This document shows, one piece after another, positions 43,035-54,540 of a stretch of DNA of 64,000 nucleotides (position 1 is the stretch's first letter; every line of letters begins with the position of its first letter). This DNA comes from Acidimicrobium ferrooxidans (GTDB lineage: Bacteria > Actinomycetota > Geothermincolia > Fen-727 > Anoxymicrobiaceae): NCBI GenBank assembly GCA_020723485.1, contig DYIU01000001.1, positions 186,001 to 250,000 on the forward strand, read 5' to 3'. Position numbers and translations under genes: made by a program. The notes under the pieces were generated by a model. That model was given only the letters and a program-made list of their open reading frames with translations, was not told where the DNA came from and made no database searches.

Positions 43035-43388
43035 ATGTCGAGGAGAACCTGCGCGTCTGTGGTGCTGCTGTGCCTGGTCCTGGCCGTGAGCGTCCTCGCG
43101 GGCTGCGGTGGTGGGGGAAAGCCCACCATCAACTCGATATCGCCGGCAAGCGGCCCCCCTATGACCCAGATACTCATCTACGGGAGCGGGTTCGGAGAGG
43201 GCGGAGGCATGAACAAGGTCGAGTTCGACGGAAACGCCATCGGCATCAAGACGTGGTCCGATACCGACATAGTCGCGACCGTCCCCGCCGATATGAAACC
43301 CGGCACATACGACGTTACCGTGGTCACCGGGGACGCGACCAGCGGAGCCCTGCCGTTCGAGGTCACCGAAGCCTCCTCCACACCCTGA
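43035..43388 (+). CDS. Small IPT/TIG-domain lipoprotein
   Basis: A 117-residue lipoprotein: lipobox VLAGC, a Gly-rich linker, then one IPT/TIG immunoglobulin-like domain (PTINSISPASGPPMTQILIYGSGFG ... DIVATVPADMKPGTYDVTVVTGDA). Such domains bind sugars or proteins at the surface. GGAGGT precedes the ATG. A -10-like TATAAT at 42969-42974 lies upstream without a convincing -35. The 212-bp gap before it otherwise holds nothing I can name. Confidence 0.85.
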   Translation: MSRRTCASVVLLCLVLAVSVLAGCGGGGKPTINSISPASGPPMTQILIYGSGFGEGGGMNKVEFDGNAIGIKTWSDTDIVATVPADMKPGTYDVTVVTGDATSGALPFEVTEASSTP

Positions 43389-47157: not shown

Positions 47158-47337
47158 TCACAGGTTGGCAAACGAGAACGCGAGGGCGGCGAGCGCCATC
47201 ACTGCATAGAGCCCGGTTATGGCGATCACGAGCTTCCTCTCGAGCCCGGGCTTGCGCGACGCGATGGCCTTGACCAGCCACGCCCCCAGCCCGACTGTCA
47301 CCACAGCCGCGGCCAGCGAAAGCGTCATGAAGAACAT
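47158..47337 (-). CDS. 59-aa two-helix membrane protein
   Basis: A short gene encoding MFFMTLSLAAAVVTVGLGAW, then a basic loop (KAIASRKPGLERK), then a second hydrophobic helix (LVIAITGLYAVMALAALAF). Two transmembrane helices with the basic loop inside are predicted. The ATG at 47337 lies 11 bases after the stop of the previous gene, with AGGGG upstream, so it is the last gene of the coiled-coil operon. The frame, spacing and composition support a real gene. The family is not recognised; a holdfast or assembly subunit is possible. Confidence 0.65.
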   Translation of the reverse strand: MFFMTLSLAAAVVTVGLGAWLVKAIASRKPGLERKLVIAITGLYAVMALAALAFSFANL

Positions 47338-47348
47338 CTCATCGCCCC

Positions 47349-47861
47349 CTAGTACCTTCCCTGCATCATATTGGCTATGTCGGCCGCCGCCCCGTTCGTA
47401 CTTGCCAGACCGCCGGCCATGGCCCCGAGGGCGCCTACAGTGCGGTTTATGAAGCTGAGGGTGACGGACGTGCGCTCCGCCACGACGGACAGCGGGCCCT
47501 TGGCATCGGCGACCGCACCCTTGAGGCCGGTGATACCCGCGTTGCTCCGGTCCAGGTATTCGGCCGTTATGCCCTGAAGCGCGTTCGCGTTATCCACCAG
47601 CACGTTCATCTGCTCGACTACGGTCACCAGGGACTTCAGGTCCTCCAGCATCTTGCGCGTCTTGCCGGTCATCTCCTCGGTTGGCGTGAAGGCGCCGGTT
47701 ATGTCCTCAATGGAGCTGTTCTGTTCCTCGACTCCCTCGAGGAGCGCGGCCTGCTTCTTACCCATCTTTCCCTGGACCTCAATGACCTTGACCAGCGACA
47801 ATCCCGTTACCACGAGGCTTCCCGCTATCACCAGGTACAGGAACAGCTTGACGGCCTTCAT
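47349..47861 (-). CDS. Single-anchor helical ectodomain protein (coiled-coil operon gene 5)
   Basis: A 170-residue protein with one N-terminal transmembrane helix (about residues 5-26) and an all-helical outside region. It contains NSSIEDITGAFTPTEEMTGKTRKMLEDL; the PTEE motif recurs in the gene at 48711 and SIED in the gene at 49292, which indicates paralogy. It lacks Cys and has no known domain. GAGGTG precedes the ATG. Ten bases separate it from the previous stop. Confidence 0.8.
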   Translation of the reverse strand: MKAVKLFLYLVIAGSLVVTGLSLVKVIEVQGKMGKKQAALLEGVEEQNSSIEDITGAFTPTEEMTGKTRKMLEDLKSLVTVVEQMNVLVDNANALQGITAEYLDRSNAGITGLKGAVADAKGPLSVVAERTSVTLSFINRTVGALGAMAGGLASTNGAAADIANMMQGRY

Positions 47862-47871
47862 CGCTTACACC

Positions 47872-48693
47872 TCACTTCAACAGGTTCTTGAGCGGGTCGA
47901 GCAGCGGCGAGAGTATGTTGTTCGTCAACCCGTTGACCGTGTCGACAGTCCCATCGAGCACCTGGTCGACCCCTGTCACCAGCTCCTGCGTCAGGGTCTG
48001 GACGGGTCCGGGCGCCGACGGCGTGCTCTTGCGCGCGCCCTGCGTGGAGGACGCGGCAACCGCCGCGGCGGCCGGTTTCGGCATGAAGTCTCCCAGGCGG
48101 GAGAGTATGTCGCCCTTCATGTACGCCTTGGCCTTGAGGCTGTAAGGCTGTATCGCCGCCAGGTACCCCAGCGTCGAGTCGAACAGCCCCGAGATGTTCG
48201 ACGCGATCCCGACCATGTCGGACGTCCCCGCCACGACGGCACCGGTGAGGTCGAGCGCGGAGCCCATCGAAGCGAGCAGCTCTCCCATGACAGGGTCGAG
48301 TCCCTGCACGCCGGACAGGGTCGTGAGCAGCTTGCCGTTCAGGACAGAGATGGACTGGTTGGTCTGCGTCAGCAGCGGCTTCTGCCCGCCCATCAACTCG
48401 TTCAGCCGGTCGACCACCACGAGCTGCTCCTCGAGCAGCCCGTTCGTCTCGGCAAGCAGGTCGAGCTTCTTGTCGAGGACCGAGACGTTTGACCCGACCT
48501 CTCCCATTATGTCGTTCATGTCCTTCATGGTGCCCAGGCTTTCGTCAACCATGTTGAAGATGTTGTACTTCTTGTTGAGTTTGCCGACGGCCCCGCTGGT
48601 GGCCAGGCCGTGAGCGATGACGAAGACCCCTGCGAGCACCACGCCCATCGCGACAACCAGTGAGAACTTCTTGCCCATCGAGTATTTCCTCAT
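47872..48693 (-). CDS. Single-anchor helical ectodomain protein (coiled-coil operon gene 4)
   Basis: A 273-residue protein, the longest of the operon. A transmembrane helix (about 10-31) is followed by a helical region with repeated Leu/Asn-rich heptads (VLDKKLDLLAETNGLLEEQL, VVVDRLNELM) up to residue 200. An Ala/Ser/Pro linker (PKPAAAAVAASSTQGARKSTPSAP) follows, then a second helical part ending in a Leu/Asn/Pro-rich tail (NNILSPLLDPLKNLLK). The linker suggests it spans cell wall. GAGGAGAAG precedes the ATG. No known domain is recognised. Confidence 0.8.
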   Translation of the reverse strand: MRKYSMGKKFSLVVAMGVVLAGVFVIAHGLATSGAVGKLNKKYNIFNMVDESLGTMKDMNDIMGEVGSNVSVLDKKLDLLAETNGLLEEQLVVVDRLNELMGGQKPLLTQTNQSISVLNGKLLTTLSGVQGLDPVMGELLASMGSALDLTGAVVAGTSDMVGIASNISGLFDSTLGYLAAIQPYSLKAKAYMKGDILSRLGDFMPKPAAAAVAASSTQGARKSTPSAPGPVQTLTQELVTGVDQVLDGTVDTVNGLTNNILSPLLDPLKNLLK

Positions 48694-48710
48694 CTTCTCC
48701 TCACCTCTCC

Positions 48711-49280
48711 TCAGGGAAGGACCGGCAGCGCGAAAGTGAACAGCACGCGGTACGTCGCAGAGTTGGCCAGCTTGCTCCTCATCTGTGCCATCTCGGCGGC
48801 TATGGCGCCGTTCAGCCGGTTTATCTCGTCCAGGGTCCCCAGCGAGGCCTCGGAGGCCAGGTTGCTGCTCTCCACCGCGCTGGCAAGCTGGTTGATATAG
48901 GGTATGAGCTCGTTCAGGGATGCGGTGAGCTCATCGGTGTCAGACCTCACGGACAGGAGCACGCCGTTCGTCTCGCCGATGGTCGCCACCATCGCGGCAA
49001 GGCCGTCGCGCATCCCGCTCATACCCTCGAGGATCTCGCTTATGTAATTGCCGACAGTCCCCGCCTTGTCGTTGAGCTCCTCGGTGGGTTTGAGGGCTCC
49101 CTTCATCCCCTTGTTGAGCCCGGTCGACTCGGCGATCTGACTGTCGACCTTCACTATCTTCCTGTCCACGTTCTTCGCCACGCCGAGCGTCGCGACGGTC
49201 CCGATGGCGGTTATGAGCGCAACCGCGGCAGCCGTGGCGAGCACTCCCGTGCCCAGGACCTTTTTCATGAAAGCCTTCAT
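48711..49280 (-). CDS. Single-anchor helical ectodomain protein (coiled-coil operon gene 3)
   Basis: A 189-residue protein with one N-terminal helix (MKKVLGTGVLATAAAVALITAIGT) and a helical ectodomain. KGALKPTEELNDKAGTVGNYISEILEGM carries the PTEE motif shared with the gene at 47349. The ATG at 49280 is preferred to 49286 because AAGGAG is then seven bases upstream. The C-terminus ends FTFALPVLP; it is hydrophobic but too short for a second membrane helix. Confidence 0.8.
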   Translation of the reverse strand: MKAFMKKVLGTGVLATAAAVALITAIGTVATLGVAKNVDRKIVKVDSQIAESTGLNKGMKGALKPTEELNDKAGTVGNYISEILEGMSGMRDGLAAMVATIGETNGVLLSVRSDTDELTASLNELIPYINQLASAVESSNLASEASLGTLDEINRLNGAIAAEMAQMRSKLANSATYRVLFTFALPVLP

Positions 49281-49291
49281 CCTCATACTCC

Positions 49292-49807
49292 TTATGGAAG
49301 CGCCGGCACGGAGTTGTTGTTTGCGGCGGCCAGGTCCCTCATCTGTGCGACTTTGCCAAGCTGCTCCTTGGCGGCGGCGCCTATCTCAGCGAGGAGGCCC
49401 CCCGCGTTGCCCATGATGCTCACGACGTCCCCCATCCTGGCAGTCATCGCGCCCGCCATCTCGATGTTCGCCACGATGACGGCGTCGATGGCCTGGTTGA
49501 CAGAGAGCAGGGAGTCGTTCATCGCCTTGATCTGGTCGGCGTTCCCCACTATCTCTCCGGCGGTGCCGTGGACGGACTTCATCTTGGCCATGATCGCGTC
49601 GAACTCGGTGACCATGTCCTCGATGCTCTCGCTCTTCTGGCCCATGGCGTTCTCGTACGCGATGGCCTTGCCGAGGAGCTTGCTGTTCTGCGAAAGCTGC
49701 GAGTCCAGCTTCTTCAGCTCCCCGAGCATCATCAGCGTGTTGAACATGAAGGCGACGAGCGCAACTACCCCGGCTATCTTTCCGTACTTGATGAGCTTCT
49801 GCTTCAT
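49292..49807 (-). CDS. Single-anchor helical ectodomain protein (coiled-coil operon gene 2)
   Basis: A 171-residue protein: basic start, transmembrane helix (about 11-29), then LKKLDSQLSQNSKLLGKAIAYENAMGQKSESIEDMVTEFD and further heptads rich in Met, Ala and Asn. It shares SIED and overall plan with its neighbours. The ATG at 49807 has AGAGGTG seven bases upstream; the frame start at 49816 does not. It ends NNNSVPALP. Confidence 0.8.
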   Translation of the reverse strand: MKQKLIKYGKIAGVVALVAFMFNTLMMLGELKKLDSQLSQNSKLLGKAIAYENAMGQKSESIEDMVTEFDAIMAKMKSVHGTAGEIVGNADQIKAMNDSLLSVNQAIDAVIVANIEMAGAMTARMGDVVSIMGNAGGLLAEIGAAAKEQLGKVAQMRDLAAANNNSVPALP

Positions 49808-49818
49808 GTCACACACCT

Positions 49819-50346
49819 CTACATGTTGCTCATTATCTCGAGCGCCCGGTCCATCTTGTTGTTTATTGTCTGGTTGACCGACTTGAACGCGTTCAGATTG
49901 GCGAACAGCGCCCGGACCAGGTCGAGGGTCTGCCCGGTCATGCCGAGCTGCGTCTCCGTGTCAGACTTGAGGCCTCCCTCGACGGCGAGGACCTGCTGGG
50001 CTATGCCGAGGACCCCGGCGACCTTGCCCTTCTGCGTCTCGACGATGCCCGCAAGCTCCTTGGTCGTCGCCATCTGCTTGCCGGCCCCCTCGTTGACCTG
50101 CTTGAGAAGGACAACCGAACCGGCCAGCTGCTCCTCTTTCTTATCCAGCGCCTCGATGACATCCACCAGGTTCTCGGTCTTCTCGTTGAGGTCCGTGACC
50201 TGCTTGTTGATGTTCTTGAGCTGGCCGGTGAGGTTCATCTTGACGACGCTCTCGGGTTGCGAGCAACCCCCGAGCAGGACCGCGCCGAGCGCGGCGGCCA
50301 GCAGCGTGAGCGCCGCGATTGCTCTTTTTACGGTGGTCACTTTCAT
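49819..50346 (-). CDS. Coiled-coil lipoprotein (coiled-coil operon gene 1)
   Basis: A 175-residue protein that opens the operon. The signal peptide ends with lipobox VLLGGC, predicting lipidation at Cys28. The rest is helical with clear heptads (QLKNINKQVTDLNEKTENLVDVIEALDKKEEQL). A predicted ECF-type promoter lies 56 bases upstream. GGAGGT precedes the ATG. It may anchor the assembly in the outer leaflet while the paralogs are held by uncleaved helices. Confidence 0.82.
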   Translation of the reverse strand: MKVTTVKRAIAALTLLAAALGAVLLGGCSQPESVVKMNLTGQLKNINKQVTDLNEKTENLVDVIEALDKKEEQLAGSVVLLKQVNEGAGKQMATTKELAGIVETQKGKVAGVLGIAQQVLAVEGGLKSDTETQLGMTGQTLDLVRALFANLNAFKSVNQTINNKMDRALEIMSNM

Positions 50347-50401
50347 CGTTGCCGTACCTCCGTTGACCGCGAGGCTTTTCCGTTTCCGGCCATCAATACG
50401 G

Positions 50402-50430
50402 GCGACCCGGTTTTTTCATGCGGGGGTTCC
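50402..50430 (-). promoter_or_regulatory. Candidate ECF-type promoter of the coiled-coil operon
   Basis: On the minus strand GGAACC (50425-50430) and GGTCGC (50402-50407) are 17 bases apart, resembling ECF -35 GGAAC and -10 CGTC boxes, 56 bases before the 50346 ATG. CGGACGA/TCGTCCG (50430-50457) forms an inverted repeat just beyond. No housekeeping promoter is clear in this divergent gap. Confidence 0.35.
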
Positions 50431-50539
50431 GGACGAATGATTGCCGGCGCTCGTCCGTATGCATCTTCCGTAAGGCGGATATGTCACTCGAGGGGATTCG
50501 AGGCAAGGCCCGGGTCCCGGACACAGAAGGAGGGCGAAA

Positions 50540-51448
50540 ATGTCGAAGTTGCGCAACAGGTCGAGGCTGTGCGTCAGCCTGGCGGTTGTGGGCACGCTGG
50601 TGCTGGCGATGTCGGGCATCGCCATCGCCGAAGGCATCACCATCCCCGGCACCGAGATTCAGCTGCCGGACGTGCTGCCGCCCGGCGTGACGCAGGTCGT
50701 CGAGAACGTGACCGACTCCATCCCGGTACCCGAGCTACCGCTGCCGGGGACCGAGGCTGTGGAGGGGCTCGTCAACGAAGTGACGGGCGCGCTCGAGGTC
50801 CTGCCCGTCGACGACATCACCGGCCAGCTACCCGGCCTGAACAGCCTGCCGGTTCCGGTATCCGGTGATGCCTTGAGCAGCGTCCCAGCCGGCGCCGACT
50901 CGCTGAACCTGCTGGACCCGTCCCTGCTGGACCCGTCGAACCTGCCGTCGCCCGACGCGCTGACGGACCTGCTGGACCCGTCTCAGCTCCCGCTTCCCGC
51001 GTTCCCGACTCTGGGAGACCTGCCGATCATCAGCACTCTGCTAAACATCCTGGATCCCGCGAACCTGCCCGGGCTGGACGAGCTCCCGGTGATCAGCACC
51101 ATCCTCCCGATAATCGATTCAATCCTCGACAAGCTCGCCGAGATACCTATTCTGAAGCCCATCATAGAGCTGGTGGAGAAGCTGCTGGTCATACTGCGGC
51201 CGGTGAACCCGACACCGACACCGACGCCCGAGACACCTGAAGCGCCGACCGTGCCTTCAGCGAACGTCCCCGCGGCGGTAGCGGCGGCCGAGAGCCCGGC
51301 GGGCGAGTCGTTCGACCACCTCCCATACACGGGCGCCGATTTTACGGGTGTGCTCTTCCTGATTATGTGCCTGCTCGCGAGCGTGCTGCTCATGCACAAG
51401 GTTGAGGGCTCCGTGAAGAGGACCGGATTCAAGAAGAGCAGGATATAA
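50540..51448 (+). CDS. LPXTG cell-wall-anchored Leu/Pro/Asp-rich protein
   Basis: A 302-residue exported protein. Residues 1-30 form a signal peptide (VVGTLVLAMSGIAIAEG). Low-complexity repeats follow: LLDPSLLDPSNLPSPDALTD, LLDPSQLPLP and ILDPANLPGLDELP, plus two PVISTI/PIISTL units. A Pro/Thr linker (NPTPTPTPETPEAP) leads to the sorting signal: LPYTG at about 261-265, a hydrophobic helix and a basic tail (VKRTGFKKSRI). A sortase would cut between T and G and attach the protein to peptidoglycan or to another subunit. AGGAGGG precedes the ATG. It is divergent from the coiled-coil operon. Confidence 0.9.
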   Translation: MSKLRNRSRLCVSLAVVGTLVLAMSGIAIAEGITIPGTEIQLPDVLPPGVTQVVENVTDSIPVPELPLPGTEAVEGLVNEVTGALEVLPVDDITGQLPGLNSLPVPVSGDALSSVPAGADSLNLLDPSLLDPSNLPSPDALTDLLDPSQLPLPAFPTLGDLPIISTLLNILDPANLPGLDELPVISTILPIIDSILDKLAEIPILKPIIELVEKLLVILRPVNPTPTPTPETPEAPTVPSANVPAAVAAAESPAGESFDHLPYTGADFTGVLFLIMCLLASVLLMHKVEGSVKRTGFKKSRI

Positions 51449-51596: not shown

Positions 51597-53063
51597 CTAG
51601 AACGGCAGGAGGGTTTCCTGCAGGAACTCCACCAGGTCTCCCACGATGTTGCCCTGCTGCTCCGCCGGTTCGGCCGGCGCGCTCGGCTGCGTCTGGGCCG
51701 CCGGGGCCTGCGCGGGCGGCGTTTCCTGCTCGCCAGGCACGTCCTCGCTGACGCCCGCATCGGACGCCGCGGCGCTTTCCTGGGCGACGGGTTGACCCTG
51801 TTCGGCAGGCACGTCCGGCGGGGCCCCGGCGGTGAGAACGGGAGCCACCAGGGTATTGACCACGCCGTCGACGATATAGGTGCTGCTCACCCCCGAGTCC
51901 ACGATGACCGCTGCCAGCTGGCGCGCAGCACCCAGGCTGCAGACGCCCTGGAGCGCGCTCACCATGCCGGGCGGGAGCCCGATGGGAGAAAGAATCATGA
52001 ACACAGGGTCCGTTAGCGTGGTCAGGATGCCCCCGAGCTGAGCGATGGAGGAGTCCAGCAGCTGCCCGGTGGTAGTGAGCAGCCCGCGGGCCGTGTCACC
52101 CGGCTGGGCAAGAAGGCCCCACACGGGTCCCATCTCCTTGTCCGATGGAAGCTGCCCGGTCACATCCGCCACCGGCTTCGCCCCCGGCGACTCCTCCTCG
52201 CCGGTGGCGTTCACCGCCTCGGTCACAGCCTCCTGCCTGACGGTGGCAGCGCCGGATACGCGCTCAGCCCCGCGCGAGGGCTGCCTTGCCGTACCTGCGC
52301 TCACCACTCCCACGCAGACGAGCGACCCGACGAGCAGCAGCACCACGGCGATGTTGAGAGCGGTGCCGCCGAAGCCGACGCTCCCAGCCCCCGTGGCGAA
52401 CCCGGCCGCTCTCTTGAGCGCGGCCCTGGAAAGCGCCGATATCCTGCGTGCGAAGCTCCTGGCAAGTGCAGTAGGCAGCATCGGGAACGCCGACCACCAG
52501 CCGCCCCGCCTCTCACCCGCTTCCGCCAGGCCGCACTTGAGTTGCATCCTGGCCCGGTGCAGAAGGCTCTCCGCCGCCTTCTCCGATATGCCCATCGTCT
52601 CGGCCATCTCCCGGTAGGACATACCCTGCAGCTCGCGCAGTACGATGGCCTGCGCGTGGCGGTCGGGGAGCTTCGAGAGCACAGTCAAAACGTCGGTGCT
52701 GGTCTCCGAGGAGATGAAAACGTCCTCGGGGGAGGTCGGGCAGACGAGCATCGGGTGGGACTTCTCGGCGATGTCATCGTCGGCGCCCGCCCGCTCCTGA
52801 ATGGGCCCGTTGTTCTTGCGGAAATGGTCTATAGCCAGGTTCTGTGCGATGCGGAATATCAGGTTGTGCGTGTAATCCTCGTCGGCCAGGGGCTTTCCGC
52901 TGCGCAGGAGGCGGAAGAACACCTCCTGGGCCAGGTCCTCAGCGGCGTCACGCTGCAGGCCTTTGCTCATAAAAAAGCGCAGCACCTGCATGCGGTACTG
53001 CTCGTAGATCGTCTCGATGGATGGCGCGCCAGGCCCGCCGTCCGTGCTGCCTCGGACGTTCAC
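51597..53063 (-). CDS. ECF sigma factor fused to a membrane anchor and ectodomain
   Basis: A 488-residue protein. Region 2 is at residues 20-95 (YEQYRMQVLRFFMSKGLQRDAAEDLAQEVFFRLL) and region 4 at about 130-180 (LPDRHAQAIVLRELQGMSYREMAETMGISEKAAESLLHRARMQL). A basic linker follows, then a transmembrane helix (about 237-259, ALNIAVVLLLVGSLVCVGVV) and a 225-residue outside part, helical at first, then Pro/Ala/Gln-rich, ending EFLQETLLPF. Typical ECF factors are about 180-200 residues and are held by a separate anti-sigma protein; none adjoins here. The GTG at 53063 follows AGGGAGG. Release by proteolysis is inferred. Confidence 0.9.
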   Translation of the reverse strand: MNVRGSTDGGPGAPSIETIYEQYRMQVLRFFMSKGLQRDAAEDLAQEVFFRLLRSGKPLADEDYTHNLIFRIAQNLAIDHFRKNNGPIQERAGADDDIAEKSHPMLVCPTSPEDVFISSETSTDVLTVLSKLPDRHAQAIVLRELQGMSYREMAETMGISEKAAESLLHRARMQLKCGLAEAGERRGGWWSAFPMLPTALARSFARRISALSRAALKRAAGFATGAGSVGFGGTALNIAVVLLLVGSLVCVGVVSAGTARQPSRGAERVSGAATVRQEAVTEAVNATGEEESPGAKPVADVTGQLPSDKEMGPVWGLLAQPGDTARGLLTTTGQLLDSSIAQLGGILTTLTDPVFMILSPIGLPPGMVSALQGVCSLGAARQLAAVIVDSGVSSTYIVDGVVNTLVAPVLTAGAPPDVPAEQGQPVAQESAAASDAGVSEDVPGEQETPPAQAPAAQTQPSAPAEPAEQQGNIVGDLVEFLQETLLPF

Positions 53064-53211: not shown

Positions 53212-53853
53212 CTACCGCTCTGAGACCTCGTCCGGTCCCCGGACGGTCCCCTTGACGACAAGCCGGGAACGGGCGGAGAAGCGGGGGTGGCATGCAATGA
53301 GAGTGACCCCCGGCTCCGGGGTCGGGTCCATCACGCTCGTGTCGTCAGGGTCCACGATCAGCACCTGGTCTACGGTGTACGTGTGCCGACCACCCGCCAG
53401 GTCCACAAGGATGATTTCGTCTCCGGGACCCAGTACGTCAAGGCTCCAGAACGGCCTGGAATGCGTCGTGCGGTGGCCGGCGATGACACAGTTCCCGCGG
53501 GTGCCGGGCATCGCCGTGCCCTTGATATGCGAAGGCCCCTTATCGAGGTTGGTCTTGTCATCGACGTTTGCCATCTCTATGAGGGCCGAGTCGAGTTGGA
53601 GTTCGGGGACGATTATCCTGCCGGCCAACTCACCGGGCTGCACCTCCAGGGGAACAGCGGTCGTCACGGGCCGCATCTCCCATTTGCGGTCCAGGTCTCT
53701 GCCCGTGCGGCGCCCCTCCAGGACCTGCGAGGCGAACCAGACCGCGCCCGCTACCATGGCTGCGGCCAGGATTCCCGTCAGCAGCCACCGGAACATCCGC
53801 ATGGAGAAGGAGAGCCCTCGCAGGGCCTTTTCCCGGGCCCGCCCGCCGCTCAT
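53212..53853 (-). CDS. Class E-like sortase
   Basis: A 213-residue membrane transpeptidase. An N-terminal helix (about 20-41) anchors it. Catalytic His (about 126) is in VIAGHRTTHSRPFWSLD, Cys (about 187) in TLIACHPR and Arg (about 195) in SARSRL. The TLxxCHPxFSAxxR pattern fits actinobacterial class E sortases. It would link the LPYTG protein at 50540 to the wall. The ATG at 53853 overlaps the stop of the upstream gene (ATGA); the open frame further upstream only re-reads that gene. Regulation by the neighbouring sigma factor is inferred. Confidence 0.92.
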   Translation of the reverse strand: MSGGRAREKALRGLSFSMRMFRWLLTGILAAAMVAGAVWFASQVLEGRRTGRDLDRKWEMRPVTTAVPLEVQPGELAGRIIVPELQLDSALIEMANVDDKTNLDKGPSHIKGTAMPGTRGNCVIAGHRTTHSRPFWSLDVLGPGDEIILVDLAGGRHTYTVDQVLIVDPDDTSVMDPTPEPGVTLIACHPRFSARSRLVVKGTVRGPDEVSER

Positions 53854-54422
53854 TCGAGGCGCCTCCTGTCCCTCATTCCCAGGGATAACACGGTCAGGTA
53901 ATCCCTTACACCATCGGCCCCGCCGTCGTCCCAGCCCTGCTTGAGCTCGGGCATGTGCTCCACCACCAGGTACACGCCCTCCGCCGGCATGGACAGCCCT
54001 TCCCTGGCGAGGTCGAGGAACGTGTTGCCGGGAAGCGCGAGGTCGAGCTGGTACCGCTCCTTCAGGAGGGTCCTTATCTTTATCCATTCCCTCCTGATGC
54101 GATAGGCCTCCGCCTTGTCTGATGAAAGGAGCATCGTGAGGGAGAGGCCGGACATCACCGCCAGGAGCTGGCGGTGGTCTTCCAGCTGGTCATACGTCCG
54201 GATATCGTCCGCGGAGAGCGCCTCGAGGATTGTCCACTGCGCGAGGTCCTGGTCGAGGTCCTCGTCGTAGATCACCCCACGTTCGCCCCGGCAGAACCGC
54301 CTGTGCACGGACCGCGCCCAGCTCGCTATGAGGCAGGCGGCCTTGTACGAATCAAGGACTATCTGCTTGTTGATGATGAGGGCATCCGGGCCGGTGCCCG
54401 GGACGGAGCTCTTGTCCCCCAT
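53850..54422 (-). CDS. Helical protein coupled to the sortase
   Basis: A 190-residue soluble, mainly helical protein of unknown family: IINKQIVLDSYKAACLIASWARSVHRRF, an acidic patch (IYDEDLDQDLAQW), and a hydrophobic middle helix (LLAVMSGLSLTMLLSS) too polar at its ends to be clearly transmembrane. No signal peptide or known motif. The ATG at 54422 has AAGGGGG ten bases upstream; the TTG at 54431 is the alternative. Its stop overlaps the sortase start, so the two are made together. A role in sortase control or substrate delivery is only a guess. Confidence 0.75.
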   Translation of the reverse strand: MGDKSSVPGTGPDALIINKQIVLDSYKAACLIASWARSVHRRFCRGERGVIYDEDLDQDLAQWTILEALSADDIRTYDQLEDHRQLLAVMSGLSLTMLLSSDKAEAYRIRREWIKIRTLLKERYQLDLALPGNTFLDLAREGLSMPAEGVYLVVEHMPELKQGWDDGGADGVRDYLTVLSLGMRDRRRLE

Positions 54423-54540
54423 TGCCCGCAAGCCCCCTTTGGAGTTCTTCTAAACAGCGTGCATGTCCAGACACCAGGGAATACGGGTGTTGCGCACAAT
54501 TCATTCTCGGGAGCCGCTGCGGGAACGCCGGCGCCGGTAC

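Follow-up and report, generated by a model that had tools for sequence, protein, structure and literature searches.

What do six short, tightly packed genes build when none of their products matches a known protein family and five of them share one simple plan? The question is raised by an operon on the minus strand (50346-47158) of the window, the 64,000-nucleotide stretch of DNA analysed here. Its genes, designated P1-P6, are separated by gaps of only 5-17 bp and encode one lipoprotein, four helical proteins with a single anchor and one 59-aa protein with two helices. A first-pass annotation of this DNA had read the products as duplicated subunits that could bundle into a periplasmic or wall-spanning filament. 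The system extends beyond the six-gene operon of that annotation, as a sortase, a wall protein and a membrane-fused ECF sigma factor are linked to it.

All six genes lie on the minus strand. P1 (50346-49819), found in seven genomes, encodes the lipoprotein, with the lipobox LLGGC and a coil at residues 36-172; the lipobox is present in six of the seven genomes, the cysteine being absent in G008. P2 (49807-49292) begins with ATG, an alternative GTG start at 49816 being possible, and has one N-terminal anchor, a coil at residues 28-167 and an invariant C-terminal PALP. P3 (49286-48711) combines one anchor with a coil at residues 33-179, a PTxE motif and a C-terminal PxLP (with one extra residue in one genome). 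P4 (48693-47872) also has one anchor, and its coil (residues 43-182) is followed by a Pro/Ala-rich linker and an amphipathic C-terminal tail. P5 (47861-47349) has one anchor, a coil at residues 26-166 and the motif PTEE. P6 (47337-47158) encodes the 59-aa protein with two hydrophobic helices. In each of P2-P5 the N-terminal hydrophobic helix follows a short basic segment with a net positive N-terminus, and a second strong hydrophobic stretch was not found in these four proteins. The cytoplasmic N-termini of the anchored proteins comprise only a few residues. The six genes noted by the first-pass annotation, with the lipoprotein in front and the two-helix protein at the end, were confirmed at their coordinates, and the operon is conserved in seven genomes.

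When 31 genomes from its class were searched with profiles, seven proved to carry the complete operon, P6 included, with an identical gene order. P1-P5 always co-occur, and no partial operon was found among the seven. Because the complete operon is kept in seven genomes with its order unchanged, P1-P6 are all considered real genes. Across 396 sampled genomes of the phylum, the P5 profile gave no convincing match beyond the seven operon genomes, the single weak match outside them covering 86 residues (7e-4), and P3 as the query retrieved one relative in GTDB genome contigs. None of P1-P6 matched Pfam or NCBIfam above the cut-off or had a meaningful relative in the PDB; confident matches to unrelated known families, which the first-pass annotation had named as counting against its reading, were not obtained from these three databases. 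Weak PDB and Pfam matches to laminin, BLOC-1, chemoreceptors, designed coiled coils and a tape measure protein were not accepted as homology, since coiled coils commonly give matches of this sort. A phage link hinted at by weak matches of P1 was also rejected, as tblastn against phages gave no match.

The suggested duplication of the subunits was borne out by profile-profile comparison for two pairs and not for the other eight, P2 remaining unplaced. With the membrane helix included, P1 and P4 aligned with an hhalign probability of 92 (E 6e-7, score 49.6; heptad-preserving shuffles reached at most 26.8), and P3 and P5 with a probability of 89 (E 2.5e-6). Since the shuffle control for P3/P5, in which the membrane helix was retained, reaches 44.4, this pairing leans also on an ectodomain-only search, where the P5 profile matched P3 at E 2.3e-7 and the best reversed sequence at 0.41. 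The remaining eight pairs did not rise convincingly above shuffled or reversed controls. Only P1/P4 and P3/P5 exceeded their controls; therefore, at least two duplications are indicated, the origin of P2 is left unplaced, and a single common family for all five proteins was rejected. Of the two motifs said to recur, PTEE occurs at residues 67-70 of P3 and 60-63 of P5, and its PT is kept at equivalent positions in 7/7 P5 and 6/7 P3 proteins. SIED, noted in P2 and P5, is not conserved in the other species and is a chance coincidence of one genome.

Coiled coils homo-oligomerise readily. The five products could on this ground be independent homo-oligomeric coiled coils that share nothing but an operon, for example separate wall tethers or spacers, and the lack of detectable similarity between most family pairs agrees with this. 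We regard it as rather improbable in view of the near-equal coil lengths described below and of the constant co-occurrence with unchanged order, none of the seven genomes having a partial operon.

The plan common to the five proteins, an N-terminal anchor followed by a helical ectodomain, gained support from their heptad patterns. Conservation in all five ectodomains has a period of 3.48-3.50 residues, with a power of 14.5-29.3 against a 95% shuffle level of about 5.7. Between the membrane and the coil end the heptad phase hardly changes, the windowed drift being less than about 110 degrees per coil. With boundaries placed by eye from the phase table, the coils of P1-P5 comprise 137, 140, 147, 140 and 141 residues, respectively, i.e., 19.6-21.0 heptads or about 21 nm at ~1.5 angstrom per residue, and across seven species not a single gapped column occurs in any of them. 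Random register breaks reduce the periodicity signal; if each protein contained one break, the joint chance of the observed power would be about 0.002, a product of five per-protein values taken as independent. All five families therefore show the one-register periodicity expected of a continuous coiled coil of two or more strands, over ~20 heptads. The most conserved heptad positions are a, d and e, more than a two-stranded coil requires, and this fits a higher-order bundle without proving it. Internal repeats within each protein did not exceed shuffled controls. As for the bundling into an envelope-spanning rod proposed earlier, the continuous register, the near-identical lengths and the gapless evolution speak for this idea, and the subunits may assemble into one bundle or filament.

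The same helices can be read in another way. Conserved prolines (residues 67 and 129 in P3, 60 and 123 in P5, 106 and 134 in P4) could be turns of a helical bundle rather than parts of a continuous rod. AlphaFold2 with two-row alignments gave all-helix models of low confidence (pLDDT 56 and 48), and that of P3 has breaks at ~64, 104 and 143, i.e., four helices with breaks about 39 residues apart. With two sequences behind them and low confidence, the models leave room for a compact bundle. The five proteins would then be compact antiparallel bundles, sensor-like or adhesin, acting as envelope-stress sensors or receptors that feed the sigma factor. The conserved prolines fall at f/g positions, PTxE is a typical helix start, and P2 has weak, chance-level matches to chemoreceptor coils. 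However, the putative breaks do not interrupt the heptad phase in any of the five proteins, and the N-termini, with only a few residues in the cytoplasm, carry no signalling domain, so we consider this reading unlikely, though it deserves to be taken seriously.

The surroundings of the operon bear on its role. Divergent from it lies a conserved neighbour (50540-51448, plus strand) encoding a secreted wall protein with an LPYTG sorting signal, a hydrophobic helix and a basic tail. A secretion signal, an LPxTG-type motif, a helix and a basic tail, as looked for in a sortase substrate, are thus all present. By inspection, LPYTG, LPSAG or LPFTG followed by a helix and a basic tail was found in the wall proteins of five genomes. 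The sequence of this protein is poorly conserved, and the G008 copy was recognised solely by its position and sorting signal. In G015, the most divergent operon genome, another secreted-looking frame (L030 7193-8205) occupies the place of the wall protein, and an LPxTG neighbour was not found at the operon locus. A small lipoprotein with a likeness to an IPT/TIG-type domain, judged by eye, is encoded at 43035-43388 of the window.

Further on, three genes form a unit on the minus strand. Gene X (53850-54431) is the first of them; it has no Pfam match and heads the sortase/sigma unit in four genomes (53850-54431 in the window, L009 12593-13168, L042 6040-6594 and L043 4454-5038), being conserved in G008, G020 and G022. 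The second gene encodes a class E-like sortase (53212-53802; the open frame reaches 54087, and the probable start, MRMFRWLL, is at 53802). Its best NCBIfam model is class E with 101.7 bits, below the cut-off of 160, so that it is not assigned to the class itself. Two further sortases are encoded in the same genome. The third gene (51597-53063) encodes an ECF sigma factor (PF08281/PF04542) fused to a transmembrane helix (residues 238-256) and an extracytoplasmic tail. Comparable neighbours were found in other operon genomes. The unit is ~10 kb from the operon in G020 and on another contig in G022. Transposase-like open frames, recognised by eye, lie between the operon and the unit in G020 (L042 1785-3128 and L026 16764-17769), and it is possible that they caused the separation.

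When presence was counted only where the match extends well beyond the sigma domain, the fused sigma factor was found, among 31 genomes, in 7/7 operon genomes and in 1/24 others (Fisher p=3e-6 from raw counts that ignore phylogeny). Three further genomes have weaker matches confined, or nearly so, to the sigma domain. The exception, G016, carries the relative (L041 7957-9741) and lacks the six-gene operon; its fused sigma factor may control a different gene set. Neither an HxxxCxxC motif nor a Pfam zinc-finger was found between the sigma domain and the membrane helix of the fused sigma factor, and a search for a carbohydrate-binding domain in it gave no match. A mutual similarity of the P4 tail, the sigma tail and the wall protein was considered and found not convincing.

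Promoter-like sites connect these genes. A bipartite element, GGAAA-N12-CCGTAT, lies upstream of P1 in six of the seven operon genomes and was not found at the G015 operon. In the window, the ECF-type site TGAAAAAACCGGGTCGCCCGTATTG (50394-50418, minus strand) precedes the operon; with a matrix built without the window's own site it is the best match in 64 kb (21.4 bits), followed by a site upstream of the gene X/sortase/sigma unit (54479-54503, minus strand; 17.2 bits). Third comes a weaker, divergent site upstream of the wall-protein gene (50438-50462, plus strand; 12.9 bits, leave-one-out), and as chance alone should yield one or two scores of this size in 64 kb, it is unremarkable by itself. 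Independent support is given by other genomes, where sites were found 33 bp before gene X (G022, 20.7 bits), directly before the sortase (G026, 16.2 bits), before the sigma gene (G016, 16.1 bits) and before the wall protein (G008, 17.3 bits). In two whole genomes, GAAAAN{11,12}CCGTAT occurs once per genome, each time at the six-gene operon. Other genome-wide copies of the promoter motif yielded no convincing extra target. An autoregulated ECF regulon would be expected to show such a pattern. We infer that the fused sigma factor binds these sites; the six-gene operon is apparently under its control.

Based on the above results, we suggest, at even chances, an autoregulated envelope system in which a parallel coiled-coil stalk, built of the five subunits, points from the membrane towards the wall. 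P1 through its lipid and P2-P5 through their N-terminal helices would each project one coil of ~20 heptads and ~21 nm outward. Most likely, the five coils would lie side by side in a parallel, hetero-oligomeric stalk, and P6 would be its partner in the membrane. Starting at the membrane, the stalk would cross the inner wall zone and reach the wall, to which the LPxTG protein would be fixed by the sortase; distal contacts would be made by the P4 linker and amphipathic tail and by the conserved PxLP termini of P2 and P3. With its extracytoplasmic tail the membrane-fused sigma factor would sense the condition of this layer, and after its release it would activate the operon, the wall-protein gene and the unit to which it belongs. 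Coils of equal length that share one orientation, are inherited together and have a sortase and a wall protein as neighbours are best accounted for by a stalk or spacer lying between the membrane and the wall. We infer co-assembly of the five subunits, indirectly, from equal lengths and strict co-occurrence, as well as the orientation of the tip, the tether or spacer role and the function. A stricter version, an obligate hetero-pentameric parallel stalk of fixed length, joined to the wall through a sortase and wall protein of its own and restrained by a membrane-fused sigma factor that senses assembly, would be a previously undescribed envelope apparatus; we put it forward tentatively and hold it to be somewhat doubtful.

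Omp85 was not found in the genome; therefore, an outer membrane is unlikely. If the proposal is true, this bacterium without a sign of an outer membrane has a dedicated molecular ruler, or tether, that connects its membrane with its wall. The match between the coil length of ~21 nm and the 22 nm given for the periplasmic space of B. subtilis by one cryo-EM group is only suggestive, as that value is disputed by another group (PMC8141598). The locus adds five protein families without a Pfam match and a membrane-fused sigma factor for which a regulon can be predicted, which makes the function open to direct testing. Taken as a whole, the data suggest an undescribed structure bridging the membrane and the cell wall in an Actinomycetota lineage.

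Among known systems, the gene plan resembles that of the mycobacterial mce operons: there, as here, one operon encodes several anchored subunits that are helical in their outer parts, one of them a lipoprotein. Such subunits could form a helical tunnel for lipids, an MCE-like conduit after the loss of the MCE domain. However, the MCE (MlaD) domain PF02470, present in 4/14 controls, is absent from the whole genome, and an MCE-type lipid conduit is therefore very improbable. In addition, the Pfam searches matched none of the helical regions of MCE proteins, and no permease gene lies in or beside the operon. A relation to MCE was rejected.

As in actinobacterial class E sortase systems (PMC5148588), the best model of the sortase is class E and a substrate-like protein is encoded nearby, but the sorting motif here is LPxTG-like rather than LAxTG, and the score of 101.7 remains under the cut-off. 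Membrane-fused ECF sigma factors, e.g., ECF52/ECF53, are already known, and autoregulation was proposed for SCO4117 (PMC8999054, PMC5826349). In our fused factor, as in these, the sigma domain is joined to a transmembrane helix and an outside tail rich in Pro; it differs in having neither the zinc-finger (ZAS) HxxxCxxC nor a carbohydrate-binding domain match. The nearest functional analogue of the proposed P1-P5 stalk is SlaB of Sulfolobus, a membrane-anchored coiled-coil stalk of the S-layer to which the roles of membrane anchor and distance ruler of the envelope have been ascribed (PMC6911244). No sequence relation of P1-P5 to SlaB was detectable, and the architectures differ: SlaB is one protein that forms trimers and carries beta-sandwich domains, whereas P1-P5 are five different subunits consisting of coils only.
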